Part shown: piece after piece, positions 30,591-45,792 of the stretch
Layout of the letters: each line of letters opens with the position of its first letter
Position numbering within the stretch: position 1 is the first letter of the stretch
Source: Aureimonas frigidaquae
Lineage (GTDB): Bacteria; Pseudomonadota; Alphaproteobacteria; Rhizobiales; Rhizobiaceae
Direction: 5' to 3'
DNA length: 64,000 nucleotides
Assembly (NCBI RefSeq): GCF_001463905.1
Contig: NZ_BBWR01000009.1
Coordinates: 62,001 to 126,000, forward strand
Made by a program: the position numbers and the translations under genes
Notes under the pieces: generated by a model
The model's database searches: none
Told to the model about the DNA's origin: nothing
Seen by the model: the letters and a program-made list of their open reading frames with translations, nothing else

Positions 30591-31760
30591 ATGTTGGACA
30601 CGACCAGGACCGACCAGCGCAACGAGAATGCGCCTGCCTTGTCCGCCGACAAGGCGGGCGACGGCGTGGCCATCGTGTTGACGGGTGACTGGATCGTCCG
30701 CTCTGTCGGCGCTGTCGAGCAGACGATCGAAAAGACGCTCGCCTCGGACCTCGGCGCGCGCATCAGCCTGGACTGCAGCGGTGTGGGCCGCGTGGATACG
30801 GCCGGTGCGCTGCTGATCGAAAAGCTGAAGCGCGGCCTGTCGGACAAGGGCTCGGAGGTCCGGATCGACGGGCTGACGGCCGGCAACGACCCGCTGTTCG
30901 AGGCGGTCCGCCGCTCGCTGGATGCCGAGCATGACACTCAGCCCCGCAAACGCGGCAACCCCGTCCTCGACATGCTCGAAGGGCTCGGGCGTTGGGTGGT
31001 GGGAACGGCCGGCGAGGTGGTGGACGGGCTCAACATCGTCGGCGCTTCTCTCTATGGCGCCGGGCGCAGGCTGACGGGCAAGACGCAGTTCCGTCCGGCC
31101 GCGATCGTCGCCCAGATCGATCACATGGGCGTGCGCGCCCTGCCGATCATCACCTTGATGAGTTTTCTGATCGGCGGCGTGATCGCCCAGCAGGGCGCCT
31201 TCCAGCTGCGCTACTTCGGCGCCGAGATCTTCGTGGTCGATCTAGTCGGCATCCTGCAGCTGCGCGAGATCGGCGTTCTTCTGACGGCCATCATGATCGC
31301 CGGCCGCTCCGGCAGCGCGATCACCGCGGAAATCGGTTCGATGAAGATGCGCGAGGAGGTGGATGCCCTCCAGGTCATCGGCCTCAACCCCATCGGCGTC
31401 CTCGTCTTTCCGCGGCTGGTGGCGCTCACCATCATCCTGCCGCTGCTGACCATCGTGGCCGATATCGCCGGCATCTTCGGGGCGATGGTCGTGACCTTCC
31501 TCTATTCCGGCATTACGCCGGAAGCGTTCCTGATGCGCCTGCGCGGGGCTATCGATGTCGCGACAATCTTCGCCGGCCTGATCAAGGCGCCGTTCATGGC
31601 CATCGTCATCGGGGTCGTCGCCGCCTCCGAGGGGCTGAAGGTTGGCGGCAGCGCCGAAAGCCTTGGCCTCCACGTGACCGCATCCGTCGTGAAGGCGATC
31701 TTCCTCGTCATCCTGATGGATGCCATGTTTGCGATCTTCTATGCCTCCATCGGATACTGA
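30591..31760 (+). CDS. mlaE: MlaE-type lipid ABC permease with fused N-terminal STAS domain
   Basis: 389 aa. Residues ~20-110 form a STAS domain (GDGVAIVLTGDWIV; ISLDCSGVGRVDTAGALLIEKL), which in E. coli is the separate protein MlaB. The rest is the MlaE permease: ALPIITLMSFLIGGVIAQQGAFQL, ILQLREIGVLLTAIMIAGRSGSAITAEIG split by helices, and MKMREEVDALQVIG, the coupling region. It acts in inner-membrane phospholipid transport with the next three genes. mlaF starts 20 bases before its stop. Confidence 0.95.
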   Translation: MLDTTRTDQRNENAPALSADKAGDGVAIVLTGDWIVRSVGAVEQTIEKTLASDLGARISLDCSGVGRVDTAGALLIEKLKRGLSDKGSEVRIDGLTAGNDPLFEAVRRSLDAEHDTQPRKRGNPVLDMLEGLGRWVVGTAGEVVDGLNIVGASLYGAGRRLTGKTQFRPAAIVAQIDHMGVRALPIITLMSFLIGGVIAQQGAFQLRYFGAEIFVVDLVGILQLREIGVLLTAIMIAGRSGSAITAEIGSMKMREEVDALQVIGLNPIGVLVFPRLVALTIILPLLTIVADIAGIFGAMVVTFLYSGITPEAFLMRLRGAIDVATIFAGLIKAPFMAIVIGVVAASEGLKVGGSAESLGLHVTASVVKAIFLVILMDAMFAIFYASIGY

Positions 31761-32646
31761 GACACCGCCTGAGAGCGGCCGCGCACCGGCCGCGCAAACG
31801 CCCAGCCGCTCCGGCGGGGGCGACGACCGCGAGGTGATCATCACCTGCCGCGACGTGACCGTGCGCTTCGGCTCCAAGACCATCCTGGAAAACCTGTCCA
31901 TGGACGTGCGGCGCGGCGAGATTTTGGGCTTCGTCGGCGCCTCGGGCACGGGCAAGTCGGTGCTGCTGCGCACTATTCTGGGGCTGAACGCTAAGCAGAG
32001 CGGGACCATCGAAGTCTTCGGCATTGATTACGAGCGGGCAAGCGACGAAGAGCGCCTGGCCGTGGAACAGCGTTGGGGCGTGTTGTTCCAGCAAGGGGCT
32101 CTGTTTTCATCCTTGACGGTGCTGGAGAACATCCAGGTGCCGATGCGCGAATATCTCGACATTTCGCCCAAGCTGATGGGGGAACTCGCCCGCCTGAAGA
32201 TCGATCTGGTCGGCCTGGCCGCCGATGCGGCGGACAAGTACCCGTCCGAACTATCGGGCGGCATGATCAAGCGCGCAGCTTTGGCCCGGGCGCTGGCGCT
32301 CGATCCCGATATCGTCTTCCTGGACGAGCCGACATCCGGCCTCGACCCCATCGGCGCGGCCGATTTCGACGATCTCGTCATGACGCTGCGCGACACGCTG
32401 GGCCTGACCGTCTACCAGGTGACGCACGATCTCGACAGCCTGTTCCGGGCCTGCGATCGCATCGCGGTGCTCGGCCAGAAACGTGTCTTGGTGGAAGGCG
32501 ATATTCAGACCATGCTCGACAGTGACGACCCCTGGGTGCGCAGCTATTTCCACGGCAAGCGCGCCCGCAGCATCGTGACTGACGAAGCCGAGCCGGCCGA
32601 TGATGTCCGGCCGAAGGCGGAACGTTCCGCGGACGGGGAGGCCTGA
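31741..32646 (+). CDS. mlaF: MlaF-type ABC transporter ATPase
   Basis: 301 aa. Walker A is GASGTGKS, the Q-loop GVLFQQGALFSSLTV, the signature ELSGGMIKRAALARALA, Walker B IVFLDEPTSGLDP and the H-loop VTHDL. MREYLDI and the GMIKR signature variant are typical of MlaF. An N-terminal Pro/Ser-rich leader (~35 aa) precedes the domain. ATG 31741 lies within the mlaE end; ATG 31720 is an alternative. It powers the MlaE permease. Confidence 0.94.
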   Translation: MPPSDTETPPESGRAPAAQTPSRSGGGDDREVIITCRDVTVRFGSKTILENLSMDVRRGEILGFVGASGTGKSVLLRTILGLNAKQSGTIEVFGIDYERASDEERLAVEQRWGVLFQQGALFSSLTVLENIQVPMREYLDISPKLMGELARLKIDLVGLAADAADKYPSELSGGMIKRAALARALALDPDIVFLDEPTSGLDPIGAADFDDLVMTLRDTLGLTVYQVTHDLDSLFRACDRIAVLGQKRVLVEGDIQTMLDSDDPWVRSYFHGKRARSIVTDEAEPADDVRPKAERSADGEA

Positions 32647-32651
32647 GGCTC

Positions 32652-34319
32652 ATGGAAAATCGCGCGAATTACATTCTGGTGGGCGTCTTCACGCTGGCGA
32701 TCCTCGCCTTGAGCTTCGGCTTCATCTACTGGTCGGCCAATGTGTCGGATGCCAATAAGCGGGTGCCGCTGATCGTCCGGATCGAGGGCTCCGTATCCGG
32801 CCTGTCCGTCGGCAGCCAGGTGCTCTTCAACGGCCTGGCCGTCGGCGCCGTCACCAATCTGCGGATCGATCCGAACAATCCGCGCGTCGTGATCGCCACG
32901 ACGCAGGTGGATCGCACCACCCCCATCACCACGTCCACCGCCGCCACGCTCGGATCGCAGGGGCTGACCGGCGTCAGCTTCATCGGACTGACGGGCGGCA
33001 ATGTGAACGACCGCAACATCATCGAATCCGCCATGGCCGAAGGCGCGACGCCCGTCATCCGCGCCAGCCCGTCCGATGTGACCGACATTCTGGCCACGGC
33101 GCGCGATATTTCCGAACGCGCCAACAATATTCTGGGTGAATTCGAGCGGCTGGTGCAGGAGATCGGCCCGGCCGTCCGCACGACAGCCAACAACATCGCC
33201 GCAACGTCCGACCACGTGGAAGTCTTCACCGCGAGCCTGGCGCAGAATGCCGACCAGATTCCGGACTTCGTGGCGAGCCTCGGCCGCCTGGCCGAAAGCG
33301 CCAACTCGGTGGCGCTGCGCCTGCCGACCTTGATCGACCGCGCATCGGAATTTATCACGGCGCTGAACGTGGAGTCGGTGAACAGCTCGATCGAGAATGT
33401 CGCCGCCATCACCCAGTCGGTGCGGGACCAGACCGGCAACATCACCGCCACGGTGGAGCAGGTGGCCACGGCCGCCCGCAGCTTCGGCGCCGTCGGGGAG
33501 ACGATCAACCGCAACCTGTCCTCGGTCGACCAGTTCGTGGCCAATCTCGGCCCGATCTCCGAGCAGGCGCAGAGCGTCGCCGGGCGGCTGGACACGACGC
33601 TCCAGTCGGCGGAGGGGCTCGTCGCCTCCATCGACCCGGCACAGGTCCGCGCCACGCTGGACGGCGTGCGCGGTTTTGCCGACGCCTTGAACGCCCAGTC
33701 CGGGGCGCTCGGCTCCATCTTCGGCGGCACGCAGACGGTCCTGTCGTCGCTCGCAACCGCCCTGAACGGCCTGAACGGCACGCGCGCGCAGATCGACGAG
33801 ATCATCGCGGGGATCGACGCCGACGACGTGACGCAGGTGATGAACAACATCTCGGCCGCCAGCGCCAACATCGCCAGCGCAGCGGATTCGGTCGGCGGCG
33901 TCGCGCGGGACATCGGCAACCGCCGCGAGGATATCGACCGCATCATCACCAATGCGGAAGACATCAGCACCAACCTGCGCTCGGCCTCGGTTCAGGTGCA
34001 GACCATACTGGACTCGGTCAACGGCCTCGTGAACAGCCCGGACGGGCAGGGCCTGACGGCCGAAGCGCGCGCCACGCTGCAGTCCATCCGGCAGACGGCC
34101 GATATCGTCCGCGCCAATATCGGGCCGATCGCCGCCAATCTGCAGAGCTTCTCGGGCCAGGGGCTGAACGATGTCCGCTCGCTGATCCGTGAAGCATCCG
34201 GGGCCATATCGCGCATCGAACGTGCCATCATCGGACTGGCCGACAATCCAAGCCGCATCATCTATGGCGGGACCGGCTCCGGCCAGGTCCGTGAGTTCGA
34301 TGGTCGGACACGGCGATGA
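32652..34319 (+). CDS. mlaD: MCE (MlaD-type) lipid-binding protein, long form
   Basis: 555 aa. One N-terminal transmembrane helix (YILVGVFTLAILALSFGFIYW) is followed by the MCE domain (~38-115: VPLIVRIEGSVSGLSVGSQVLFNGLAVGAV split by strands; LTGVSFIGLTGG). About 430 mostly helical, Asn/Ala/Ser-rich residues then form a long coiled-coil tail. Long MCE proteins form hexamers with extended periplasmic tubes or needles. E. coli MlaD has only ~183 residues, so this is closer to the long architecture. Stop and next frame overlap by ATGA. Confidence 0.92.
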   Translation: MENRANYILVGVFTLAILALSFGFIYWSANVSDANKRVPLIVRIEGSVSGLSVGSQVLFNGLAVGAVTNLRIDPNNPRVVIATTQVDRTTPITTSTAATLGSQGLTGVSFIGLTGGNVNDRNIIESAMAEGATPVIRASPSDVTDILATARDISERANNILGEFERLVQEIGPAVRTTANNIAATSDHVEVFTASLAQNADQIPDFVASLGRLAESANSVALRLPTLIDRASEFITALNVESVNSSIENVAAITQSVRDQTGNITATVEQVATAARSFGAVGETINRNLSSVDQFVANLGPISEQAQSVAGRLDTTLQSAEGLVASIDPAQVRATLDGVRGFADALNAQSGALGSIFGGTQTVLSSLATALNGLNGTRAQIDEIIAGIDADDVTQVMNNISAASANIASAADSVGGVARDIGNRREDIDRIITNAEDISTNLRSASVQVQTILDSVNGLVNSPDGQGLTAEARATLQSIRQTADIVRANIGPIAANLQSFSGQGLNDVRSLIREASGAISRIERAIIGLADNPSRIIYGGTGSGQVREFDGRTRR

Positions 34320-34372
34320 AGCCGCTGTCGACCACCGCCATGACGCTGAGCGGCACGAGGGGGAGTAACAGG

Positions 34373-34963
34373 ATGACCATGATGATGAAGCCCGTGCTCA
34401 TGGCCGGCCTGGCTGCCCTTCTGGCAGGCTGCGCGTCGCTGTCGAAGCCGCCGCAGACCTTCGACCTCGATGCGCCGCAAACGGCCGGCAACGCCCCCGC
34501 TTCGCGCACGCAGGTCCTGGTGCCGGAGCCCACGACGACCGGGACGCTGGACAGCCAGCAGATCGTCGTCATGCCGACGCCGCTGACCATCGAGTATCTG
34601 GGCGCGAGCCAGTGGAGCGACCGCCTGCCGAGGCTGGTGCAGCTTCGGCTCGTCCAGGCGCTGCAGAATTCCGGGCGCTTCGGCGCGGTCGGCCTGCCGG
34701 GCCAGGGCCTGGCGATCGACTACCAGGCCGTCAGCGAGATCCGCCGCTTCGACATTTCCTATACGACGGGCCAGCCCGTCGCCACGATCGAGATTGCCGT
34801 CAAGGCGCTGGACGACCGAAGCGGGGTCGTCCGCGCCACGCGTGTCTTCCGTGTCAGCGAACCGCTCGCAGGCGGTGACAACCCCAGTCTGGTCGCAGGC
34901 CTGAACGGCGCCTTCGAGCGGATTGCGGCAGAAATTGCCGGATGGTTCGCCAGGGTCACCTGA
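34373..34963 (+). CDS. ABC-type transport auxiliary lipoprotein (PqiC-like)
   Basis: 196 aa. The signal LMAGLAALLAGC carries a lipobox. The body shows the PqiC/DUF330 pattern: QIVVMPTPLTIEYLGASQWSD, RLPRLVQLRLVQALQNSGRF, and YQAVSEIRRFDIS. These outer-membrane lipoproteins complete MCE systems. GAGGGGGAG upstream supports ATG 34373. ATG 34316, coupled to mlaD by ATGA, would add 19 residues before the signal. Confidence 0.9.
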   Translation: MTMMMKPVLMAGLAALLAGCASLSKPPQTFDLDAPQTAGNAPASRTQVLVPEPTTTGTLDSQQIVVMPTPLTIEYLGASQWSDRLPRLVQLRLVQALQNSGRFGAVGLPGQGLAIDYQAVSEIRRFDISYTTGQPVATIEIAVKALDDRSGVVRATRVFRVSEPLAGGDNPSLVAGLNGAFERIAAEIAGWFARVT

Positions 34964-34992
34964 CGCGCCGGCCGGCCGCACCGGGAGGACGC

Positions 34993-35907
34993 ATGATGAC
35001 GACGCAGGACGCAAAGCCCACAGTGGGCTTTATCGGCCTTGGCTATATGGGCCACGGCATGGCCCGCAACATCCTGAAAGGCGGATACCGCCTGATGGGG
35101 CTGGCCAATCGGCGGCGGGAGGCGATGGACGATCTCCTGGCCCATGGGGCGGCCGAAGGGCGCTCCGTCCAGGACATTGCGCAAGGCTGCGACATCGTCG
35201 TCCTGTGCCTGCCGGGATCGCCGGAGGTGGAAGCCGTCGTCGCCGGGGCTGATGGTTTGCTGGCCCATGCAAGGCCCGGCCTCGTCATCATCGACTCTTC
35301 CACCTCCAACCCCGTCTCGACCCGCGGCCTGGCCGCGTTGGCGGCGGAAAAGGGCGTCACCCTTATCGATGCGCCGCTGAGCCGCACGCCCGTCGAGGCC
35401 ATGGCCGGAACGCTCGACACGATGGTGGGCGCGGACGATGCGAGCTACGCCATCGTGCAGCCGGTCATCGATTGCTGGTCCGGCCGCATCGTGCGCACGG
35501 GCGTGGTCGGCTCCGGCCACACGATGAAGCTTCTGAACAACTTCCTGTCGCTCGGCTATGCCGCGCTTTACGCGGAAGCCCTCGCCATCGGCGCGAAGTC
35601 CGGCGTGTCCCCAGAGACGCTGCATAAGGTGATCAGCGGCGGCCGGATGGATTGCGGCTTCTACCAGACCTTCATGAAATACGTGGTCGGCAAGGACCCG
35701 CAGGCGCATAAGTTCACACTGCGCAACGCCCACAAGGACACGCGCTACCTCGTGTCATTGGCCAACGAAGCCGGGATCGCCAGCCATATGTCGAGCGCGG
35801 TCAAGAACGGCTATGCCACGGCCGAAGGCATCGGGCGCGGCGACGATTTCGTGCCCGTCCTCGCCGATATCGTGCGGGAGCTGAACGGCTTGCCCAAAGC
35901 CGACTGA
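34993..35907 (+). CDS. NAD(P)-dependent 3-hydroxyisobutyrate dehydrogenase-like oxidoreductase
   Basis: 304 aa beta-hydroxyacid dehydrogenase. The N-terminal Rossmann motif is GFIGLGYMGHGMARNI. The substrate loop is LIDAPLSRTPVEAMAGTLDTM, where Ser/Arg/Thr replace the usual DAPVSGG. The catalytic Lys is in GHTMKLLNNFLSLGY. The variant substrate loop means the true substrate may not be 3-hydroxyisobutyrate. GGGAGGA eight bases upstream supports ATG 34993 over 34942. Confidence 0.87.
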   Translation: MMTTQDAKPTVGFIGLGYMGHGMARNILKGGYRLMGLANRRREAMDDLLAHGAAEGRSVQDIAQGCDIVVLCLPGSPEVEAVVAGADGLLAHARPGLVIIDSSTSNPVSTRGLAALAAEKGVTLIDAPLSRTPVEAMAGTLDTMVGADDASYAIVQPVIDCWSGRIVRTGVVGSGHTMKLLNNFLSLGYAALYAEALAIGAKSGVSPETLHKVISGGRMDCGFYQTFMKYVVGKDPQAHKFTLRNAHKDTRYLVSLANEAGIASHMSSAVKNGYATAEGIGRGDDFVPVLADIVRELNGLPKAD

Positions 35908-36012: not shown

Positions 36013-39000
36013 TCAGGCCTGGCCGAAGCGGCCGGAGGCGTGGGCGAGCATGGTGTAGACCTTGCCCGTATCGGAGACGAGGTACTCCTGCACGCGCTTG
36101 CCATCGGGCTCGCGGCGCTTGAGGTCGTTCATCATGGCCTCGAAGTCGCCGATGTAGCGATCCACCGCATGGCGGAAATCCTGCTCGCGGTGGTAGCGGC
36201 GGCGGATTTCGTCAAAGGTCTGCTGGCCCTTCATCGTGTAGAGCCTGCGCGTGAAGACATTGCGCTCGCCCTGGCGGTAACGGTCCCACAGCTCGACCGA
36301 GGCGTCATGATCAATGGCGCGGACGATCTCGACCGAGAGCGAGTTGAGCGAGTCCACCACATGGGCCGGCGTTCGCGCGGGCTGGGCCTGCGGCCGATCG
36401 GTCGCGAAGGCGGCGTTCAGCGCGGATTCCAGCTCGTCATCCTCCGGACGCTCGTCCTCGTCGCTCGAGGCGCGGCGGATCAGGTCGGAAACCCAGCTCC
36501 GCCCCTTGGCCTGCCCGCCGGCGGCCGCGCCGCCCTGCGGCGGCGTCGGCGCGACGGGCCGGGCCGCATAGACCGATGGCTGCGGCCGGGGCTCGACCGT
36601 GCCGCGCATGTCGCGGGCAAGGTTGCCCTCCGCCTGGATCGACCCCATGGCGCGGCGCTCGAACTCGTCGGCCGCGCGCAGCTGTTCCTGCTCGTCGGCA
36701 ACGGCCTGGCGCGGCGCGGGCGCCGGGGCCGGGGCCGGGCGCTGTTCCCGCGGCGCGGCGGCCTGCTGCACCACGGGGGCCGCCGGCTGCGGAGCGGTGG
36801 CACGTGCGGCCCGGACATCCAGCGTGCGGCCGGACTGGGTCACGATCTCTCCCAGCTCCTTGAGGGCGCGGATCTGGTCGGACACGGCCCGACGCATGGC
36901 ATCGGTGCTCTGGCGTGCTTCTTCCGGAAGGTCGAAGACACCGCGCTTGATCTCCTGGCGCGTGGCGTCGAGGTCGGTCCGCAGCGTCGCAGCGGTCTGC
37001 CGCATTTCCTCGGTCGCCTGCAGGAAGCGGCGATTGGCATCGTCGAGGGCGGAGGCGAGCGCCTCGCGAACCTTGTCGACAGCGGTCGCCGAGTTGCGCT
37101 GCGTCGCCTCGATCCGGCGGCTGACGACTTCCTCCAGCGAGCGCACCGTCTGGGCGATGTCGGTCGAGCTTTGCGACAGGCCGGCGGCCAGCGTCTCCAG
37201 CCCGGCCCGGCGCTCTTCGAGCGTATGGCCCATGCCCGACTGGACATTGTCCAGGAGCTGGGCGGCCTGCGCCAGCGCCTCGCTTTGCTCCGCAAGCCGC
37301 TGAGCGATGCTGTCGCCCCGCGTGGCAGCCTCTGCGCTGAGCGTGTCGAGGCGGTCGATCTGGCCGTCGAAGCGGCTGCCCGACTGCTCGATGACCGAAA
37401 CGGCCTTGTCGGTGCCGTCGGAGAAGCGCTCGGCTGTCTGCGTGAAGCGCTCTTCCAGGCTTCCGAGGTCGCCCGTGGCGTCCGCGACCAGCTTGCCGAG
37501 CACGCCGCTGACCTGGCCGATCCGCTGGACGAGCTGAGCCGCTTCCTGCGTCAGGCTGCGCTGCGCCGTCGCCACGATGTCCGCCGCCTCACGCGAGCTA
37601 CGTTCGAGCTGGCTTCCGAGCTCCGACGAGGAACCGGAGATTTCCTCGACAAGCTGGCGGGCATGGGTGCGGAAGCTTTCCAGAAGGGCGGCGTTCTCGC
37701 TGCGCAGCCGGTCGGCGGCATCCTGGGCGCTCTCGCCGATGGCGGAGGCGATGGCGTTGCCTTCGTCCGACAGGCGGGACAGCAGCGGCCGGGCCTCTTC
37801 GTCCAGCAGGCGGGCGATCTCGGCATTGCGGCGGCCGAGCATTTCCTCCAACTCCTGGACGCGTTCGGCAAAGGCCGCACCAAGGGCCGCGGCACGGCCG
37901 GCCAGGCTGTTCTCGTTGGCTTCCACGCGGCGCGCCAGCTCGTTGGCAAAGGCGCTCGTGGCTTCCAGAACCTGATCGCGGGCGCGGTCGGCCTCCAGCC
38001 GGATGGCGGTGGACACGCCGGCCAGCGCGTTGGAGATATCGCCCGTATCGCGCAGGAGGATTTCGCGCGCTTCCCTTGCATCGTCGATCATGCGGCCGGA
38101 TACGGCACGGGAGGTTTCCTCCGCCTCGCCGCGCAGCTTGTCGCCGGCCTGGCCGATCTCCTGGCCGATCGACGCGGCGACCCCGTCCAGAATGTCGGCA
38201 AAGCCCTGTGTGCGCTGGTCCAGATCGCCGCGCAGCGTGGCAGCCCGCTGGTCCATCTGCCGCAGGGCCTCGGCAATGCCGTCCAGCATCTGCGAGGCGC
38301 CGTCGCCGAGCGTGGAGCGGGCTTCCTCGGCCACCTGACGCACACGGTCGGCCACCTTATCGAGATCGGAGCCGACATCGAAGGACCGGTCCGCAAGCTC
38401 CGCGCGGATGATGTCGACGCGCTCGGTCAGGACACGCGCTGCCTCTTCGACGCCGCGGGCCATGGTCTCGGCATTGCTGGTCACGGTCTGGCGCGAGCTT
38501 TCGCCGACGCTCGACAGCATGGTGCCGGCGCCCTGGATCGCCTCGGCCAGAGCACGGGCCTCTTCGGCCAGGCGACCGCGTGCGCCGTCGGTATCGGCGC
38601 GGAAGCGCTCCGACAGGGTTTCGAGGTTCTCGACGAAAGCGCTGGCCATTTCCGCCAGGCGCTCACGCGCCGCCTCGGACTCCTTGCGCATGGCGAGCGA
38701 GGCGCCGGACAGGTGCGTGACGAACTGCGCATTGTCGGATTGCAGCGACTGGCGTGTCTCGTCCGCCGCGACCTGCAGGCGGGCCACCGTCTGGTCGACT
38801 TCTGCCGTGAGGCGCTTGATATCGTCCTCGAAACGCTGGCGGGCTTCTTCGCCCGAACCGTCCAGGGCCGAGCCGATCCGGGCGATGCTCGCCGTGAAGC
38901 GTTCTGCCTGCTGGTCGAGCTCGGTGCGGGCGGCCGTCGCCTCGCGGACCATATCGCCCGTCGCGCCAAGGACAGCCTCGCGAACCGCATCCGCCACCTG

Positions 39001-42000
39001 GGCCGTGCGGCCGGCGAGGGTGCGTTCCACGCTGGCGAGGCCGCGCTCCAAAGTCTGCGAAATGGCCGTGGTGCGGCTTTCGAAGGACTGGTTGATCGCG
39101 TCGGTGCCGGCCGACAGGGTCGCCTCGAAATCCTGCTGGCGGTTTTCGAGCGCCTTGGCCAGGCGGTCATCCGCCTCCACGAAGGCGGCGCGCAATTCGG
39201 CCACGCGGTCGTCGAGTGTCTGGGCAAGGTCCGCATTGCTGCGCGACAGAGCCGTGCCGAGCAGGCCGGCCTTTTCGTCGAAGTCCGACAGGAAGGAGGA
39301 GCTCGTGCCGTCGAACAGGCCGCGCACGGAGTCGAGGCGCTGGTCCAGCGCCTGCAGAAGGCCGCCCTTGAGGTCCCCGCCGGCGCCCTGGATCTGCATT
39401 GTGCGGGTTTCGAGGCCGGCCATCAGGCCGCGGAGCGTTTCGTCCATGGACTGGATGACAGAGGCTGCCGAGGATTCCACACCGGCGGAGAACTCGCGGT
39501 TGCCCGTTTCCAGCGTCTTGGCGAGCACCGCGGCGGAGCTGTCCATGCCGGACAGGAGCCGGCTGCGGCTTTCGTCCACGACCGCCCGCAGCGCATCGAC
39601 CTTGGCCGCCAGTTCGGCGGTGATGTCGTCCAGCGTGCCGCTGATGCCGGCTTCCAGCCGCGCGGCATGTTCGCTGATGTGCCGGGCCAGCTCCTGGCGC
39701 TGGGCGTCGGCAGCAGTGAGCGCCTTTTCCAGGCGGCGGATGGAATCGGTATCGATGGCGCTGTTCTGGGCTTCCAGCGCCTCGACGATACGGCGACCGG
39801 CCGAGACGAGGGCCTCTTCGCCGCCGGACATGCGCAGCGTGATCTCCTGCGAGATCGCCTTGGCGCGGCTGTCCATGTTTTCGAGGAGCTGGCTCGACTG
39901 GCCTTCCAGCGTATCGGACAGGGATTTGGTGCCTTCCTCTAGGAAGAGCGCCATGGCGTTGCGCCGCTCTTCCAGGAGCGAGGCGATCAGGCCCATCCGC
40001 TGCTCGAGGCTCGTTTCGAGCATTTCGCGATTGTCTTCAACAAGTTCGATGATCTGCCGCGAACGATCGCCGATCTTGTCGGCCAGGAGTTCCGTCTTGC
40101 CCTCGAAGCCTCGCAGAAGGCGTCCGTCGACATCTTCCAGGAGCGCGGCGAGGCGCTCCACATTGCGGTCGATCGCCTTGTTGATGGCTTCGCCATGATG
40201 ATCGAGCGTCCCGACCATGGCTTCGCGCACCTCTGCAAGGGAGACGTCGAGGCCCGTGACGCGTTCCGACAGGGTCGCCGTGATGTCCTCGACCCGCTCG
40301 CCGATGCGGCCCGCCAGCGTGCGGGAGCGTTCGTCGAAATCGGACAGGAGACGTTCGTCCACGCCCTGCATCAGACGGTTCAGATCGGCCACGCCCTTTT
40401 CGATGGAGGTGGTGACGGCCTGGCCCCGCTCTTCCATGGTGGAGGCGATGGTCTGCTGTGCCAGGGCGAGGGAGGTTTCGATATCGCCCAGCCGGTCGCC
40501 GGCGACCGTGTCGAACGCGCGGGTGCGCGCTTCCAGCACGGACTGAATCTCCGCGATCTGGCGGGTGAAGGCCTCCTGCGCGGCTGCCAGCGCCTCTGCG
40601 GCGCGCTCGGCAAGGTTGGACTGCCCGTCCGCGAAGGACTGGCCGATCCGGTCGCCGTGGCTGCGCATATCGGCGCTGATGCGCTCGGCGCCCGCGTCCA
40701 GCGAAGCGCCGATCCGGGTGAAATTGCCCTCGATAGCGTCGGCGTGGCGGCCGAGCGTGGCGGCGAGGGGCGCGCCCTTGGAATCCAGCGTCTGCTCGAG
40801 CTGGTTAATGCGCTGTTCCAGGCGCTCCAGAACGTCCTCTCCCTTGCCTTCCAGCAGGAGCGAGGTGCGCAGCAGCTTCTCGTCGAACTGCTCGTCGATG
40901 AGGCCGAGGAAACGGTCGGCCTCGGCGCTGAGCGCCTTGAGCCGGTCTTCCAGCGTGCCGGCCACCGTTTCGGTGAGCCGCGTGCCTTCGGCCCCGATCC
41001 GGTCGGCACGCTCGCTCAGCATGCTGTCCAGCGTGGTCAGGAACAGCGTGTTGTCGACGCTCCAACTTTCCGTGCCGGTGCGCAGCGCTTCCCCGATACG
41101 CTCGTTGGCGCTGGCGATCGCATCGTGGATGCGCTCGCTGAGTTCGGTCGCCCCGCGGGTCAACTCCTCCGCCTTGCGCTCCAGCTCGCCCGAACGCTCC
41201 TCGATCAGGCGGTTCACCGCAGAGGTGGCCTCCTGCAGGCGGGTGCCGGCCTCGTCCGCCGTGCGGGCGATTCGCTCGGCCAGTTCCTCGCCGGTCGCGT
41301 TGAGCGTGGTCTGCGTGGACTGGCTCTGCTCGGCGAAGAACTGCGCGAGCTGGCGGCTCTGCTCCTCGTAGCGGCGGGTGATCTCGTTCGTTCGATCGTC
41401 CAGCAGCTCGGAGAAGCCGCGCGCCGCCGTCTCGATCCGCTCGGCGGCGCTTTCGGAAGCGCCCTCTACATCGTTGGACAGGCGTTGATGCGAACCCATC
41501 AGGAGCGAACGGACCTGTTCGGCATGGCTCAGCATGGCCTCGCGCTCGGTGCTGAGTTCTCCGACCAGGCCGCGAATGCGGACCTCGTTATCGGCAAAGG
41601 CCCGTTCCAGGGCGGCGACTTCCGTCGAAATGCGCTCTTCCAGGGCTGCGACCTGATCGCTCGGCAGGGCAGCGGCGGGCAGCGCGACGGGGTCACTCGC
41701 GCGTGCCGGCTGCGACTCGTTCAGGCGCAGCGCTACTTCGGCGAGCGAACGGCTCATCAGCCGCAGATCCTGCATGCGGCGCACCATCACGCCGAAGCCG
41801 AAGATCATCAGGGCCGGCAGGACGCCGCCGGCCACCATGGCGGCGCTCGCCGTCAGGAGATCGACCCCTTCCATCGCACGCCCGCCGAACAGGCCGTAGA
41901 CGGAAACGCTGGCAAGACCCAGCCAGGCAATGCCGCCGAGCCCGCCCAGGACCACCGGGCGTGCGGAGGCGCGGCGGCTCAGGAGCCCGTCGGCCATGAC

Positions 42001-42552
42001 GGTGGCCGAACGGCGCTCGTCATTGGCCGCATTCTGTTGGTAGGGCGTGGCCCCGAACGGCTGGGGCGAGGGGATATCGGCACGCGGACGGCCGGCATCG
42101 CCGCGCGTGGCAGCATAGGCTCCCGCGGCGGCGCCGGCGGCCAGTCCCGCGGCGGCAGGCTCGGGGATCAGATCCGGGGCGTCGGGACGGGCGGCCTGCA
42201 GCGTATCGGCATCGCGGTCCCAGCCGAAATCGGCCAGTTCCTCATCGAACAGACCGGGCGCTTCGTCCTGCGGCTCGATGGCCGGTTCCGCGCCGAGCGA
42301 AGGGGCCTGCGTTGCCGCGGCGTCGCCCGTCTCGGAGAAGGCGTTGCGCGCTTCGTTCAGGTTTCTGTCGAACTCGTCGAAGACGAAGTCGAAATCCCCT
42401 TCGTCGTCGGGAAGGTGATCGCCGCGCGGCGGGGTGCCGGCCTGCGTGCCGGCTGGGGTGGACGTCTCGAAATCGGCTTCGCGGAAGGCTTCCTCGAGCT
42501 CCATCTCGATCATCGCTTCGTCTGAAAGCTCGACCGTTCTGATCTTCGACAT
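36013..42552 (-). CDS. Giant coiled-coil membrane protein, Growth Pole Ring (GPR/RgsE)-like
   Basis: 2179 aa. An acidic N-terminus (~1-100) and a Pro/Ala-rich stretch precede two transmembrane helices (~200-222 and 234-257). About 1,650 residues of nearly unbroken helical heptads follow, with recurring Apolipoprotein/kinesin-like phrases such as DRLGDIETSL and LEERRNAM. A Pro/Ala linker (~1940-2030) leads to a small folded C-terminal domain (DSLNSLSVEIVRAIDHDASVELW onward, split by helices). Size, two TM helices and layout fit Agrobacterium GPR (2115 aa) and Sinorhizobium RgsE, which ring the growing pole. The assignment rests on architecture, not alignment. Confidence 0.78.
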   Translation of the reverse strand: MSKIRTVELSDEAMIEMELEEAFREADFETSTPAGTQAGTPPRGDHLPDDEGDFDFVFDEFDRNLNEARNAFSETGDAAATQAPSLGAEPAIEPQDEAPGLFDEELADFGWDRDADTLQAARPDAPDLIPEPAAAGLAAGAAAGAYAATRGDAGRPRADIPSPQPFGATPYQQNAANDERRSATVMADGLLSRRASARPVVLGGLGGIAWLGLASVSVYGLFGGRAMEGVDLLTASAAMVAGGVLPALMIFGFGVMVRRMQDLRLMSRSLAEVALRLNESQPARASDPVALPAAALPSDQVAALEERISTEVAALERAFADNEVRIRGLVGELSTEREAMLSHAEQVRSLLMGSHQRLSNDVEGASESAAERIETAARGFSELLDDRTNEITRRYEEQSRQLAQFFAEQSQSTQTTLNATGEELAERIARTADEAGTRLQEATSAVNRLIEERSGELERKAEELTRGATELSERIHDAIASANERIGEALRTGTESWSVDNTLFLTTLDSMLSERADRIGAEGTRLTETVAGTLEDRLKALSAEADRFLGLIDEQFDEKLLRTSLLLEGKGEDVLERLEQRINQLEQTLDSKGAPLAATLGRHADAIEGNFTRIGASLDAGAERISADMRSHGDRIGQSFADGQSNLAERAAEALAAAQEAFTRQIAEIQSVLEARTRAFDTVAGDRLGDIETSLALAQQTIASTMEERGQAVTTSIEKGVADLNRLMQGVDERLLSDFDERSRTLAGRIGERVEDITATLSERVTGLDVSLAEVREAMVGTLDHHGEAINKAIDRNVERLAALLEDVDGRLLRGFEGKTELLADKIGDRSRQIIELVEDNREMLETSLEQRMGLIASLLEERRNAMALFLEEGTKSLSDTLEGQSSQLLENMDSRAKAISQEITLRMSGGEEALVSAGRRIVEALEAQNSAIDTDSIRRLEKALTAADAQRQELARHISEHAARLEAGISGTLDDITAELAAKVDALRAVVDESRSRLLSGMDSSAAVLAKTLETGNREFSAGVESSAASVIQSMDETLRGLMAGLETRTMQIQGAGGDLKGGLLQALDQRLDSVRGLFDGTSSSFLSDFDEKAGLLGTALSRSNADLAQTLDDRVAELRAAFVEADDRLAKALENRQQDFEATLSAGTDAINQSFESRTTAISQTLERGLASVERTLAGRTAQVADAVREAVLGATGDMVREATAARTELDQQAERFTASIARIGSALDGSGEEARQRFEDDIKRLTAEVDQTVARLQVAADETRQSLQSDNAQFVTHLSGASLAMRKESEAARERLAEMASAFVENLETLSERFRADTDGARGRLAEEARALAEAIQGAGTMLSSVGESSRQTVTSNAETMARGVEEAARVLTERVDIIRAELADRSFDVGSDLDKVADRVRQVAEEARSTLGDGASQMLDGIAEALRQMDQRAATLRGDLDQRTQGFADILDGVAASIGQEIGQAGDKLRGEAEETSRAVSGRMIDDAREAREILLRDTGDISNALAGVSTAIRLEADRARDQVLEATSAFANELARRVEANENSLAGRAAALGAAFAERVQELEEMLGRRNAEIARLLDEEARPLLSRLSDEGNAIASAIGESAQDAADRLRSENAALLESFRTHARQLVEEISGSSSELGSQLERSSREAADIVATAQRSLTQEAAQLVQRIGQVSGVLGKLVADATGDLGSLEERFTQTAERFSDGTDKAVSVIEQSGSRFDGQIDRLDTLSAEAATRGDSIAQRLAEQSEALAQAAQLLDNVQSGMGHTLEERRAGLETLAAGLSQSSTDIAQTVRSLEEVVSRRIEATQRNSATAVDKVREALASALDDANRRFLQATEEMRQTAATLRTDLDATRQEIKRGVFDLPEEARQSTDAMRRAVSDQIRALKELGEIVTQSGRTLDVRAARATAPQPAAPVVQQAAAPREQRPAPAPAPAPRQAVADEQEQLRAADEFERRAMGSIQAEGNLARDMRGTVEPRPQPSVYAARPVAPTPPQGGAAAGGQAKGRSWVSDLIRRASSDEDERPEDDELESALNAAFATDRPQAQPARTPAHVVDSLNSLSVEIVRAIDHDASVELWDRYRQGERNVFTRRLYTMKGQQTFDEIRRRYHREQDFRHAVDRYIGDFEAMMNDLKRREPDGKRVQEYLVSDTGKVYTMLAHASGRFGQA

Positions 42553-42952
42553 CTGCGCCGCCTTGTTCGTTTCCTGTCCAGCCGCCGCTCACGATCGAAC
42601 AGCGGCCGGCGCGAGCCCTTCGTCACGTCCTGCGTGCTAGAGGGGCATTCCCGCCAAACTATGGTAGAGGCGGTGCCGGGGGTTGGGAACCGCTAAACCC
42701 TTGGCCCGCCCCAAAGTTTAAACATAAGGTTAACGCGCCTTAACAAATGCCACCGACCAGCCGGCATAGGCCTTTGCCACCAGTGGGTTACGCGTTTTCC
42801 TTCTGTTTACCATATAGGCAGATGCTGTGCCGAGGGGAGGATCCCGTCGCAAATTGGGCCGTTTCCTCCCCGCAGGATGCGCAGAGCAGTTCGACACCGG
42901 TGGGGGAGCCGGTCCGATCGCTCCGCCGACCGCCGCCGAGGGGAAACATGCC

Positions 42953-43333
42953 ATGACACGCACTGCCGCTGCCGCCACTTTCGTGAACGCCCTGCCGGAG
43001 GCTTTCGGTGAGCCGCCGTCCCGCGGGCGGGCGATCGATCTCGTCTTCCTGTCGCGCAAGACGGGCGGTGATCGCAAGGTGGAGCGCGATGTCCTGGCCC
43101 TCTTACGCTCCCAGATCGCGCTCATCCTGCAGCGTGCCCCGCACGGCACGCGGGATGAAGTCCGGCAGATGGCCAATGCCATCCGGGGTGCGGGCCGGCA
43201 TGTCGGCGCCTTTGCGGTGGCCGACAGCGCGGCGGCGCTGTCGCTGGCAACGACCGAGAGCTTCCCCATGGCCTACGACGCCTTCATCGACGAACTGGAG
43301 CGTGCGGCAAGCTTCCTGCGCTCACTCGATTGA
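42953..43333 (+). CDS. Conserved-looking small protein of unknown function
   Basis: 126 aa from ATG 42953, which has GAGGGG nine bases upstream. An Ala-rich N-terminus is followed by two or three amphipathic helices (KVERDVLALLRSQIALILQ; RDEVRQMANAIRGAG; MAYDAFIDELERAASFLRSL). There are no cysteines and no signal peptide. I do not recognise the family. It diverges from the GPR-like gene across a 400-base gap and is followed 32 bases later by the ferredoxin gene, so the two may be co-transcribed. Confidence 0.65.
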   Translation: MTRTAAAATFVNALPEAFGEPPSRGRAIDLVFLSRKTGGDRKVERDVLALLRSQIALILQRAPHGTRDEVRQMANAIRGAGRHVGAFAVADSAAALSLATTESFPMAYDAFIDELERAASFLRSLD

Positions 43334-43365
43334 CAGGCGCGGCCCATCGGGCCAAAGCCTCTGCC

Positions 43366-43686
43366 ATGACCGAGATCATCTTCGTTTCGCCTGATGGCAC
43401 GCGCTATCCCGTCGAGGCAGCCGACGGCGCCAGCGCCATGCAGGCGGCCATCCGCGCCGACATTCCGGGCATCGACGCCGATTGCGGCGGCGCCTGCGCC
43501 TGCGCCACCTGCCACATCTATGTGGACGGTGCCTTTGCCGACGCGCTGCCGCAGCCCGAAACCATGGAAGAGGACATGCTGGACTTCGCCTTCGACGTTC
43601 GGCCCACCTCGCGCCTGTCGTGCCAGATCCGCATCACGCCGGACTTGCGCGGCCTGACGCTGCATATCCCCACCCGTCAGGGCTGA
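43366..43686 (+). CDS. [2Fe-2S] ferredoxin, adrenodoxin type
   Basis: 106 aa electron carrier. The cluster cysteines follow Cx5Cx2C in DCGGACACATCHIYVDG, with the distal Cys in RLSCQIR about 36 residues later. One extra Cys lies between the first two ligands. The surrounding IDADCGGAC and MEEDMLDFA match adrenodoxin/putidaredoxin-like proteins that serve P450s or Fe-S assembly. No hydroxylase or reductase gene is adjacent. Confidence 0.92.
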   Translation: MTEIIFVSPDGTRYPVEAADGASAMQAAIRADIPGIDADCGGACACATCHIYVDGAFADALPQPETMEEDMLDFAFDVRPTSRLSCQIRITPDLRGLTLHIPTRQG

Positions 43687-43690
43687 GCCT

Positions 43691-44305
43691 TCAGTCCGCC
43701 GCCTGCGCGGGGGAATCGGCTCTCAGCCTGTCGCGCAACAGGCGCCGCAGCCGCAGCGACATCTCGTGCGATTCCTGCCGGTCGAATTCATGCTGGGCAC
43801 GTTCATGCCCGTCCAGATAGCGGTTCGTCGTCCGCGCAACGAGCGTCTCCATGGCATGGCAATCGCGCTGCGGCGCAAGGTTGCGCACCGCCATCTCCAT
43901 GCGGGTAACCCAGTTGCGCGCAATGTCTGCATGTTGCTGCTCGTGCCGCGCGACGTCCCGCTCCAGCGTCTCCCACAGGAGCACCACGACCGGGTCGGGC
44001 TTGCGCGGGCGCTTCCAGCGCGGAAGGATGATCTCGGTCCGAAGCTGGAAGTTGGCAACCGCGACACGGCAGCGGGTGCCATCCGGGCGGTAGTTCACCT
44101 GGCCGTCGAAGGTGACGGAAGTCGCGCCCGGATGCCCGGCATCGCCGCCGCCTGTCATGGGCCCGTTGCGTGCCAAGGATCGGTCCAGCTCCTCCAGGGT
44201 GGCGCCGGTGACGGTGAAATGTCGGGTCCGCTCGGCAATGTCGGCGGCACTTGCGGCCTGGGACGCGCAGGCGCCGAGGACAAGGGCAAGGATCACATTT
44301 CGCAT
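43691..44305 (-). CDS. DUF922 family secreted protein, putative zinc protease
   Basis: 204 aa. A signal peptide (VILALVLGACASQAASA) is followed by TRHFTVTGATLEELDRSL, the DUF922 opening, and the metal-site-like ARHEQQHADIARNW. The HxxxH there resembles a zinc protease motif but is not the classic HExxH. It converges on the ferredoxin gene with a 4-base gap. Activity has not been shown for most family members. Confidence 0.8.
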   Translation of the reverse strand: MRNVILALVLGACASQAASAADIAERTRHFTVTGATLEELDRSLARNGPMTGGGDAGHPGATSVTFDGQVNYRPDGTRCRVAVANFQLRTEIILPRWKRPRKPDPVVVLLWETLERDVARHEQQHADIARNWVTRMEMAVRNLAPQRDCHAMETLVARTTNRYLDGHERAQHEFDRQESHEMSLRLRRLLRDRLRADSPAQAAD

Positions 44306-44389: not shown

Positions 44390-45292
44390 ATGCGCCATTG
44401 GATTGCAGAGAGCGTTAATGCGAGGTGTGTTGTGGCGGGCGATCCGGCAGATAACTCAAAGTTGTGGCAGCTCGGGCACGGCCGGCACCTCGACCTGGCC
44501 GGCCCGGCCCGGCTGATGGGCATCCTCAACGTCACGCCGGACAGTTTCTCGGATGGCGGGCGTTTCGAGGGGAATGTGGACCTGGCCGTCGCGGCTGCGC
44601 TGCGCATGGTGGAGGAGGGCGCCGACATCATCGATATTGGCGGGGAATCGACCCGCCCCGGCGCAACGCCCGTATCGCCGCAGGAAGAGCAGGACAGGGT
44701 GCTTCCGGTCATCGAGCGCCTGTGTGCATGCTCCGACGTGCTCATCTCGGTCGATACCTATCGTGCGGAGACGGCCGAGCGCGCCGTCGCTGCCGGCGCC
44801 CATATCGTCAACGACGTCTATGGCGCGCAGAAGGACCCTGCCATGGCAGAGGTCGCCGCGCGCACCGGCGCCGGTCTCTGCCTCATGCATACGGGCCGCG
44901 AGCGCACGAAGCTGCCGGACGTGATCGACGACCAGTTCCATTTCTTCGAGCGCTCCATGGAGATCGTGGCGAAGGCCGGCATCCCGCGCGACCGCCTGGT
45001 CTGGGACCCGGGCTTCGGCTTTGCCAAGGAGCGCGATGAAAACCTCGCCCTCATGGCCCGCCTGCCGGAGCTGCGCGCCATGGGGCTGCCGATCCTGGTC
45101 GGCACATCGCGCAAGCGCTTCGTCAGGGGCGCCATCGGCCGCGAGGAGCCGGAGCCCGATGTCGCCACGGCGGCGACCAGCGTGTTGCTGCGGGAGCGCG
45201 GCGCCCACATCTTCAGGGTGCACGCCATCCTGCCCAACCGCGATGCGCTGCGCGTGGCGGACGCCGTCCTTGCCGCCGGAGTGCGCGCGTGA
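44390..45292 (+). CDS. folP: Dihydropteroate synthase
   Basis: Joins p-aminobenzoate to dihydropterin pyrophosphate in folate synthesis (300 aa). Signatures: MGILNVTPDSFSDGGRF, IDIGGESTRPGA, SVDTYRAETAERAV, IVNDVYG, WDPGFGFAKERDENL and VGTSRKRFV. The target region of sulfonamides is intact. The N-terminal ~35 residues before the first strand are not conserved, and an internal start is possible. folK overlaps the stop by four bases. Confidence 0.97.
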   Translation: MRHWIAESVNARCVVAGDPADNSKLWQLGHGRHLDLAGPARLMGILNVTPDSFSDGGRFEGNVDLAVAAALRMVEEGADIIDIGGESTRPGATPVSPQEEQDRVLPVIERLCACSDVLISVDTYRAETAERAVAAGAHIVNDVYGAQKDPAMAEVAARTGAGLCLMHTGRERTKLPDVIDDQFHFFERSMEIVAKAGIPRDRLVWDPGFGFAKERDENLALMARLPELRAMGLPILVGTSRKRFVRGAIGREEPEPDVATAATSVLLRERGAHIFRVHAILPNRDALRVADAVLAAGVRA

Positions 45293-45792
45293 CCCGCGCC
45301 TTCATCGGCCTTGGCGGCAATATGGGCGACCCCGCGGCCAGCATGGCACAGGCGCTACGCCTGCTCGACAGCTCGGCCGGGGTGCGCGTATCCAAGGTGT
45401 CGCGCCTCTACCGCACGCCGCCCTGGGGCAAGCTGGACCAGGCGGAGTTCCGCAATGCCTGCGCCGAGTTGGAAACCGACCTCGCCCCGGCGGCCCTCCT
45501 GGATCTCGCGCTCGCGCTCGAACAACGCCTGAAGCGGGTTCGGCTGGAGCGCTGGGGGCCGCGGACGATCGACATCGACGTCCTGGCCTATGGAGAAGCG
45601 CGCGTCGAAACCGACCGCCTCACCCTGCCACACCCGCGTATCCGCGAACGGGCCTTCGTCCTGATCCCTTTGGCCGAACTGAACCCGGACCTGAACATCG
45701 AAGGCCACCCGGTTCGCCACTGGCTAAAAGGGCTCGACGCAGCCTGCATCGAGGCCGTGACGGCCGATGGTGGTTGGTGGACTGAGGTCTGA
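45289..45792 (+). CDS. folK: 2-amino-4-hydroxy-6-hydroxymethyldihydropteridine diphosphokinase
   Basis: 167 aa HPPK, the step before FolP. N-terminal AFIGLGGNMGDPAASM, SRLYRTPPWGKLDQAEFRNA and the signature RWGPRTIDIDVLAYGE with the two Mg-binding Asp residues, then LPHPRIRERAFVLIPL. It is coupled to folP by a four-base overlap. The folB gene often found between the two in rhizobia is missing here. Confidence 0.97.
   Translation: MTRAFIGLGGNMGDPAASMAQALRLLDSSAGVRVSKVSRLYRTPPWGKLDQAEFRNACAELETDLAPAALLDLALALEQRLKRVRLERWGPRTIDIDVLAYGEARVETDRLTLPHPRIRERAFVLIPLAELNPDLNIEGHPVRHWLKGLDAACIEAVTADGGWWTEV

Follow-up and report, generated by a model that had tools for sequence, protein, structure and literature searches.

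Does the exceptionally long open reading frame (ORF) at 36013–42552 of the window (the whole 64,000-nucleotide stretch of Aureimonas frigidaquae contig NZ_BBWR01000009.1 analysed here) encode a relative of the polar growth proteins RgsE of Sinorhizobium and GPR (Growth Pole Ring) of Agrobacterium, and does its presence tell us how the cell grows? Sequence comparison indicates that the protein is very probably the Aureimonas ortholog of RgsE and GPR. The explanation that best fits the whole, to which we give a probability of roughly 0.82, is an RgsE/GPR relative in which a membrane hairpin anchors a long rod of 11-residue (hendecad) repeats, serving as the scaffold of a polar ring.

The reference for comparison was RgsE of S. 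meliloti (SMc00190, strain 4H41, locus L076), using E values with composition correction. The C-terminal part (residues 2046–2179) is 70% identical to RgsE over 123 residues (E = 5e-61), and the first 400 residues match it with E = 6e-34; within these, residues 263–400 are 37% identical (E = 1e-24) and the transmembrane (TM) segment alone is 25% identical (E = 9e-5). As a control, each region was shuffled 50 times by residue and scored without composition correction. The C-terminal part scores 181 bits, the best of its shuffles 23.9, and residues 263–400 score 94 bits against a shuffle maximum of 30.8. It is the two ends of the protein that carry the sequence homology to RgsE; taken by itself the TM segment is a marginal match, and composition inflates the scores of the rod. 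The sequence-only reading had named the protein as GPR/RgsE-like and had proposed alignment outside the coil, especially of the C-terminal ~130 residues, as a check; both ends turn out to be homologous to RgsE and the gene neighbourhood is common, and the identification stands.

Over the whole alignment, identity is 30.4% to RgsE and 67.5% to Aureimonas altamirensis, which is also the closest named match for the C-terminal domain (85%). The named loci, the 80 top-scoring among at least 540 relatives, lean towards close kin and are taken irrespective of MreB status. The likeness to RgsE comprises the architecture, the C-terminal domain, a conserved block following the TM segment, a hendecad rod, and neighbours (the ferredoxin, DUF922 and 44390–45292 genes), although the rod has diverged, with 26.8% identity over residues 401–1900. 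By its published description, GPR (Atu1348, Agrobacterium tumefaciens) is similar in having 2,115 residues, two N-terminal TM segments, a helix of ~1,700 residues, a proline-rich region ahead of the C terminus, and PF01442 matches. In Jiella pelagia (a complete genome) and Aurantimonas manganoxydans (L049, L050) the frames with the C-terminal domain have only 725 and 533 residues, and we read these as broken genes or sequencing frameshifts.

The gene and the parts of its protein are as follows.

36013–42552, minus strand: GPR/RgsE-family gene, 2179 residues, ATG start, single copy (ORF list, genome search, RgsE alignment)
41968–42552, minus strand: acidic low-complexity N-terminal region, residues 1–195, weakly conserved (composition, RgsE comparison)
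41887–41961, minus strand: predicted TM helix 1, residues ~198–222 (hydropathy, AlphaFold)
41779–41859, minus strand: predicted TM helix 2, residues ~232–258, the helix running on to residue ~279 (hydropathy, AlphaFold)
41329–41661, minus strand: conserved block after the TM helices, and beginning of the rod, residues 298–408 (alignment, model)
38878–41517, minus strand: hendecad rod in one dominant 11-residue frame, residues 346–1225, 880 residues (periodicity)
36883–38877, minus strand: remaining rod, residues 1226–1890, same period with several register shifts (periodicity, register model)
36418–36810, minus strand: proline/alanine-rich linker, residues ~1915–2045 (composition)
36016–36399, minus strand: C-terminal helical domain, residues 2052–2179, the best-conserved part relative to RgsE (alignment, profile, model)

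The Aureimonas genome (4.1 Mb, 30 contigs) contains one copy of this ORF. Hydropathy gives two hydrophobic segments, at residues ~199–223 and ~229–258, and AlphaFold places helices at residues ~198–222 and ~232–279 that match both, in agreement with the two closely spaced TM helices of the sequence-only reading. The model of residues 184–408, made from 44 family sequences, shows these two helices followed by one long helix (mean predicted local distance difference test score, pLDDT, 87.1; predicted template modelling score, pTM, 0.40). In the post-TM block three glutamates are invariant across the 44 aligned members. The small C-terminal domain that had been proposed is likewise predicted to be a compact helical fold (mean pLDDT 87.4, pTM 0.78). 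Searches with this domain did not lead to a fold that could be named: Foldseek returned 79 matches at E <= 10 and none at E <= 0.001, the best VIA match among 309 chains was the KaiA C-terminal domain at Z 4.1, and the best hit of a sequence-profile search of the PDB was a designed protein at E 0.028. Long antisense ORFs (1300, 596 and 776 residues) lie opposite gpr at 36040–42525 on the plus strand; these are probably a by-product of a GC-rich, repeat-like gene and not genes themselves.

The rod had been described as some 1,650 residues of heptads, and here the sequence says otherwise. Windowed hydrophobic power peaks at a period of 3.66 with a value of 14.0, while 1000 shuffles reach at most 2.32 at any period tested; at the heptad period of 3.5 the power is 1.2, with shuffled sequences as the control (of the four SMC matches in the genome, considered as a heptad control, none is over cutoff). 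Counts of hydrophobic residues over residues 346–1225 give a chi-squared of 262 modulo 11 and of 2.4 modulo 7. The heptad model was rejected on these figures, and the rod is, as judged from its periodicity, a hendecad helix. With the positions labelled a to k, the hydrophobic share is 44% at a, 74% at d, 34% at e and 80% at h, and 2–12% elsewhere; both the block and the labels were picked after the phase had been seen. A register model that is blind to charge places one shift at residues 460/461 and then runs unbroken from residue 461 to 1247 (787 residues, 71 repeats), a figure to be preferred over 80 repeats in one register. After residue 1247 the register shifts more often, and the rod is weak near residues 1700–1740 and beyond residue 1850. 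The longest unbroken run in RgsE is 557 residues. Proline is nearly missing from a stretch of ~1,600 residues, occurring within residues 291–1890 only at 292, 297, 595, 1589 and 1876. A continuous helix over the rod is supported by the period, the scarcity of proline and the PF01442 match, with residues 298–408 being the part modelled as a helix.

Rods of the family were counted in 134 of 139 proteins, leaving out five with no TM segment found (L049, L050, L056, L121, L123); L133 and L152 gave no single-sequence match. Of the 134, all but two (132) have an i/b flank that is more acidic than their k/g flank. Hendecad labels, and the very minor supercoiling that goes with them, have been described in PMC9858780. 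The closest analogues there are the actinobacterial polar scaffolds Scy, in which more than 1000 residues are 'almost entirely' hendecads, and FilP, whose rod has grown from heptads by hendecads; both have a DivIVA-type N terminus, unlike the present protein, and the likeness is one of analogy only. The word 'hendecad' is absent from the main text of the GPR and RgsE papers (PMC8262873, PMC7327166), and no GPR paper is among the matches listed in our literature searches on hendecads. An 11-residue register leads to a structural model of near-straight coiled coils, which differs from the apolipoprotein picture considered below. A paper on hendecad families by Martinez-Goikoetxea and Lupas (2023) may already list the GPR/RgsE family.

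We then come to the second half of the question. Among 121 sampled genomes of the order Rhizobiales, the C-terminal domain was found in 115, in one copy each. It was missing in six (G026, G036, G068, G078, G113, G114), none of which has a true MreB and four of which are less than 90% complete. PF06723 identifies 15 full-length MreB proteins in these genomes (379–485 bits), and a fragment in G009 (positions 207–326, 103 bits); all other matches score 64 bits or less, and we set the line for true MreB in the gap between 103 and 64 bits. All 16 MreB-bearing genomes, G009 included, have the C-terminal domain. MreC is over cutoff in 13 of the 121, all of them among the 16; it was not found in G001, G032 and G090, so that MreB and MreC together are shown for 13. 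In 14 of the 16 loci fetched from MreB-bearing genomes the frame has 915–1498 residues, with TM segments, rod and C-terminal domain; the other two (L121, L123) are short frames.

Within the order, genomes with MreB have the shorter rods, with a median of 605 residues against 1392.5 (n = 14 and 22, Mann–Whitney p 0.0004). In the tree, for which eight named loci were labelled MreB-less by assumption, the short rods fall mostly into one clade of 16 rows, 11 of them MreB-bearing and 5 MreB-less, and of four independent pairs on starred branches one differs as expected and three show no difference in rod length. The difference is therefore not independent of the tree, and no claim is made that rod length tracks the loss of MreB or is causally linked to it.

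The same picture extends through the class. The C-terminal domain occurs in 107 of 289 class genomes, or, without the Aureimonas genome itself and three members of the order, in 103 of 285 outside the order. MreB, called here by TIGR00904 at E <= 1e-60, is present in 261 of the 289. Of the 103 carriers from outside the order 95 have it, the exceptions being G163, G193, G218, G258, G285, G290, G307 and G334. From these 103 we chose 20 genes across the range of scores. Every one has the C-terminal domain in a frame of 691–2418 residues with a membrane segment near the N terminus, and 19 have at least two such segments; an N-terminal profile finds 16 of the 20 at E < 1e-3, one at 0.12 and three not at all. 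The sequence-only reading had held that the presence of the protein predicts polar rather than lateral elongation. With the C-terminal domain in all 16 MreB-bearing order genomes, and MreB in 95 of 103 carriers outside, this does not follow: on genome comparisons of this kind, the growth mode of a cell cannot be read from the presence of GPR/RgsE alone.

Krol et al. (PMC7327166) describe four Rhizobiales species that have MreB and no Rgs homologs, and suggest that the two exclude each other. According to the same paper, distant homologs of RgsE occur in Emcibacterales and Rhodospirillales, and most Alphaproteobacteria possess MreB. Co-occurrence outside the Rhizobiales is thus already implied by their data; our addition concerns the order itself and how broad the pattern is. 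The presence of both in 111 sampled genomes argues against mutual exclusion of MreB and Rgs proteins within the Rhizobiales. Their RgsE search kept lengths within 50% of 2,089 residues (PMC7327166); such a filter would remove frames below ~1,045 residues, which by our lengths are 5 of the 14 order frames and 9 of the 20 from elsewhere in the class, and we infer that it would account for the difference. GPR/RgsE has been studied as a protein of polar growth in Rhizobiales.

The rods themselves differ across the class. The period is 3.565–3.62 outside the order (median 3.575, n = 20), 3.62–3.659 in MreB-bearing order members (n = 14), 3.629–3.665 in MreB-less ones (n = 22) and 3.62–3.661 in the named loci (n = 77). 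Rods in the order are near pure hendecads, with register runs of up to 1,543 residues; those outside have a mixed period. A wider idea, which we offer tentatively and at somewhat less than even odds, is that GPR/RgsE is an old alphaproteobacterial pole scaffold coexisting with MreB and not an invention of polar growers, that lineages losing MreB made more of it, and that giant, straight hendecad rods at growing tips have arisen convergently in two phyla. If true, the change in the rod would parallel, independently, the heptad-to-hendecad growth of actinobacterial FilP and Scy.

For this Aureimonas, polar growth is nevertheless likely, because no true MreB or MreC was detected and because of its kinship, and not on account of GPR. 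The genome has no TIGR00904 match and no MreC; of its four PF06723 matches two are listed, each of them partial and scoring no more than 61 bits, in frames of 648 and 849 residues, and we read these as Hsp70. The proposed mechanism is as follows. The two-helix hairpin would hold the single-copy protein in the inner membrane with its rod of ~1,600 residues in the cytoplasm. The rods would associate as near-straight coiled coils through their a/d/e/h cores and unlike flanks, since the core is flanked by a more acidic i/b side and a more basic k/g side able to pair between chains. A continuous helix of 1,600 residues would by arithmetic be ~240 nm long. The title of a 2019 paper by Zupan names a ring diameter of 200 nm, and the two lengths are of the same order. 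Anchored rods would build a ring at the growing pole, the ring would hold cell-wall synthesis there, and in Aureimonas the scaffold would in this way drive unipolar elongation.

Published work gives this its footing. RgsE is cytoplasmic, membrane-anchored and located at the growing pole, and its two-hybrid partners are TolQ, RgsA and, weakly, RgsS (PMC7327166). In Agrobacterium, GPR assembles into a hexameric ring at the pole, and GPR lacking 221 or 332 C-terminal residues fails to complement (PMC8262873). The C-terminal domain was considered as the module for ring assembly, and this was dropped, the C terminus being needed for function and not for ring foci (PMC8262873). Because the Agrobacterium ring forms without it, the domain would recruit or instruct partners and not build the ring.

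Several points count against the polar scaffold. Aligned by itself to RgsE, the TM segment hardly exceeds chance (28.1 bits, with 26.6 the best of its shuffles), and the rod scores 349 bits while shuffled rods reach up to 100, composition inflating the similarity. The link to Agrobacterium GPR runs through RgsE, to which GPR is 42% identical (PMC7327166), GPR being known here by description. In the region 41329–42003 (minus strand), ~12 columns of the otherwise conserved block after the TM helices are missing from the Aureimonas protein and from that of A. fodinaquatilis (L037); these columns lie around GQxVRREV and include a nearly invariant arginine. The charge asymmetry of the rod is weak outside the order (median net charge of k/g 0.005) and in the Aureimonas protein (0.03), and the ferredoxin next to gpr appears in none of the 20 stretches from outside the order, for which only short flanks were fetched. 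Two deletions of ~20 residues in the rod, expressed alone, still give foci (PMC8262873), which speaks against a strict version of the model, and depletion of RgsE slows S. meliloti growth without stopping it (PMC7327166). Our literature search found no paper joining Aureimonas with polar growth.

An alternative is that the protein organises the pole for some role other than cell-wall growth, such as polarity or the placement of Tol–Pal, in Aureimonas as well. The C-terminal domain and MreB coexist in 16 order genomes and in 95 others of the class, which fits such a role; Krol et al. bring up another function for the distant homologs, besides finding that RgsE interacts with TolQ in the two-hybrid assay (PMC7327166). 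For the family at large, whose members mostly occur alongside MreB, a general pole-organising scaffold is indeed the more probable function. For Aureimonas itself we consider the alternative improbable: in two Rhizobiaceae, growth poles and shape change when GPR/RgsE is lost or overproduced (PMC8262873, PMC7327166), and the Aureimonas genome has no detectable MreB.

It has also to be asked whether the rod forms a lipid-binding bundle of helices like that of apolipoproteins, acting by binding lipid or by organising polar lipid synthesis. The whole protein scores 178 bits against PF01442 (cutoff 90), in ten stretches. This profile has been reported over ~75% of GPR, two domains of which were modelled with SWISS-MODEL on human apolipoprotein A-IV, and small deletions in the coiled coil keep ring foci (PMC8262873). 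A native segment of the rod of 440 residues scores 88.3 bits against the same profile, just under cutoff. When its residues were permuted only within each of the 11 positions, all three shuffles still matched (56, 29 and 45 bits; E 4e-15, 1e-6 and 1e-11), while neither of two full shuffles did. As far as such sequence tests go, a good part of the match appears to be due to periodicity and composition, though the native segment outscores every shuffle, and the published apolipoprotein label may be in part a periodicity effect if the result carries over to GPR itself. Class A helices of apolipoproteins are punctuated by proline and carry basic residues on both flanks, unlike this rod, which is nearly free of proline and whose flanks differ in charge. 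We think a lipid-binding rod unlikely.

Generic coiled-coil similarity, with no kinship to GPR outside the rod, has a negligible probability and was rejected: shuffled rods do score against RgsE and weak generic matches exist (SpiroCoCo and others under cutoff, and the NCBIfam profile of the Zorya anti-phage protein ZorA, which matches in the coil only, at residues 369–625 and profile positions 246–456, with 40 bits, far under its cutoff of 250), but the ends of the protein are homologous to those of RgsE and its neighbours are shared.

Two genes lie upstream of gpr on the opposite strand.

42827–43333, plus strand: small gene between the ferredoxin gene and gpr (nothing matched in Pfam or NCBIfam at E 0.001)
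43330–43686, plus strand: 2Fe-2S ferredoxin gene, upstream of gpr (profile match, locus comparison)

The suggestion that synteny would support the identification was borne out, a ferredoxin relative being present in the fetched stretch of all 80 named loci and a relative of the DUF922 gene (43691–44305) in 63 of them. The ferredoxin is also found in 14 of the 16 stretches from MreB-bearing order genomes, and is absent from L123 and L130, which are both short stretches. The small gene (query 42956–43333) has relatives in 45 of the 80.

Downstream of gpr, on the other strand, are Mla/MCE-type lipid transport genes (30591–34963, plus strand) for an MlaF-like ATPase, an MlaD/MCE protein and an ABC_trans_aux lipoprotein, with relatives of the three in 54–65 of the 80 loci. 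A 3-hydroxyisobutyrate-dehydrogenase-like gene (34942–35907, plus strand) sits between the MCE genes and gpr; it has a relative in one of the 80 loci, A. altamirensis, and is possibly a recent insertion. On the far side of the ferredoxin, two genes at 44390–45792 (plus strand), which from the protein text by eye we take to resemble folP and folK, have relatives in the neighbourhood of gpr, in 56 and 31 of the 80 loci.

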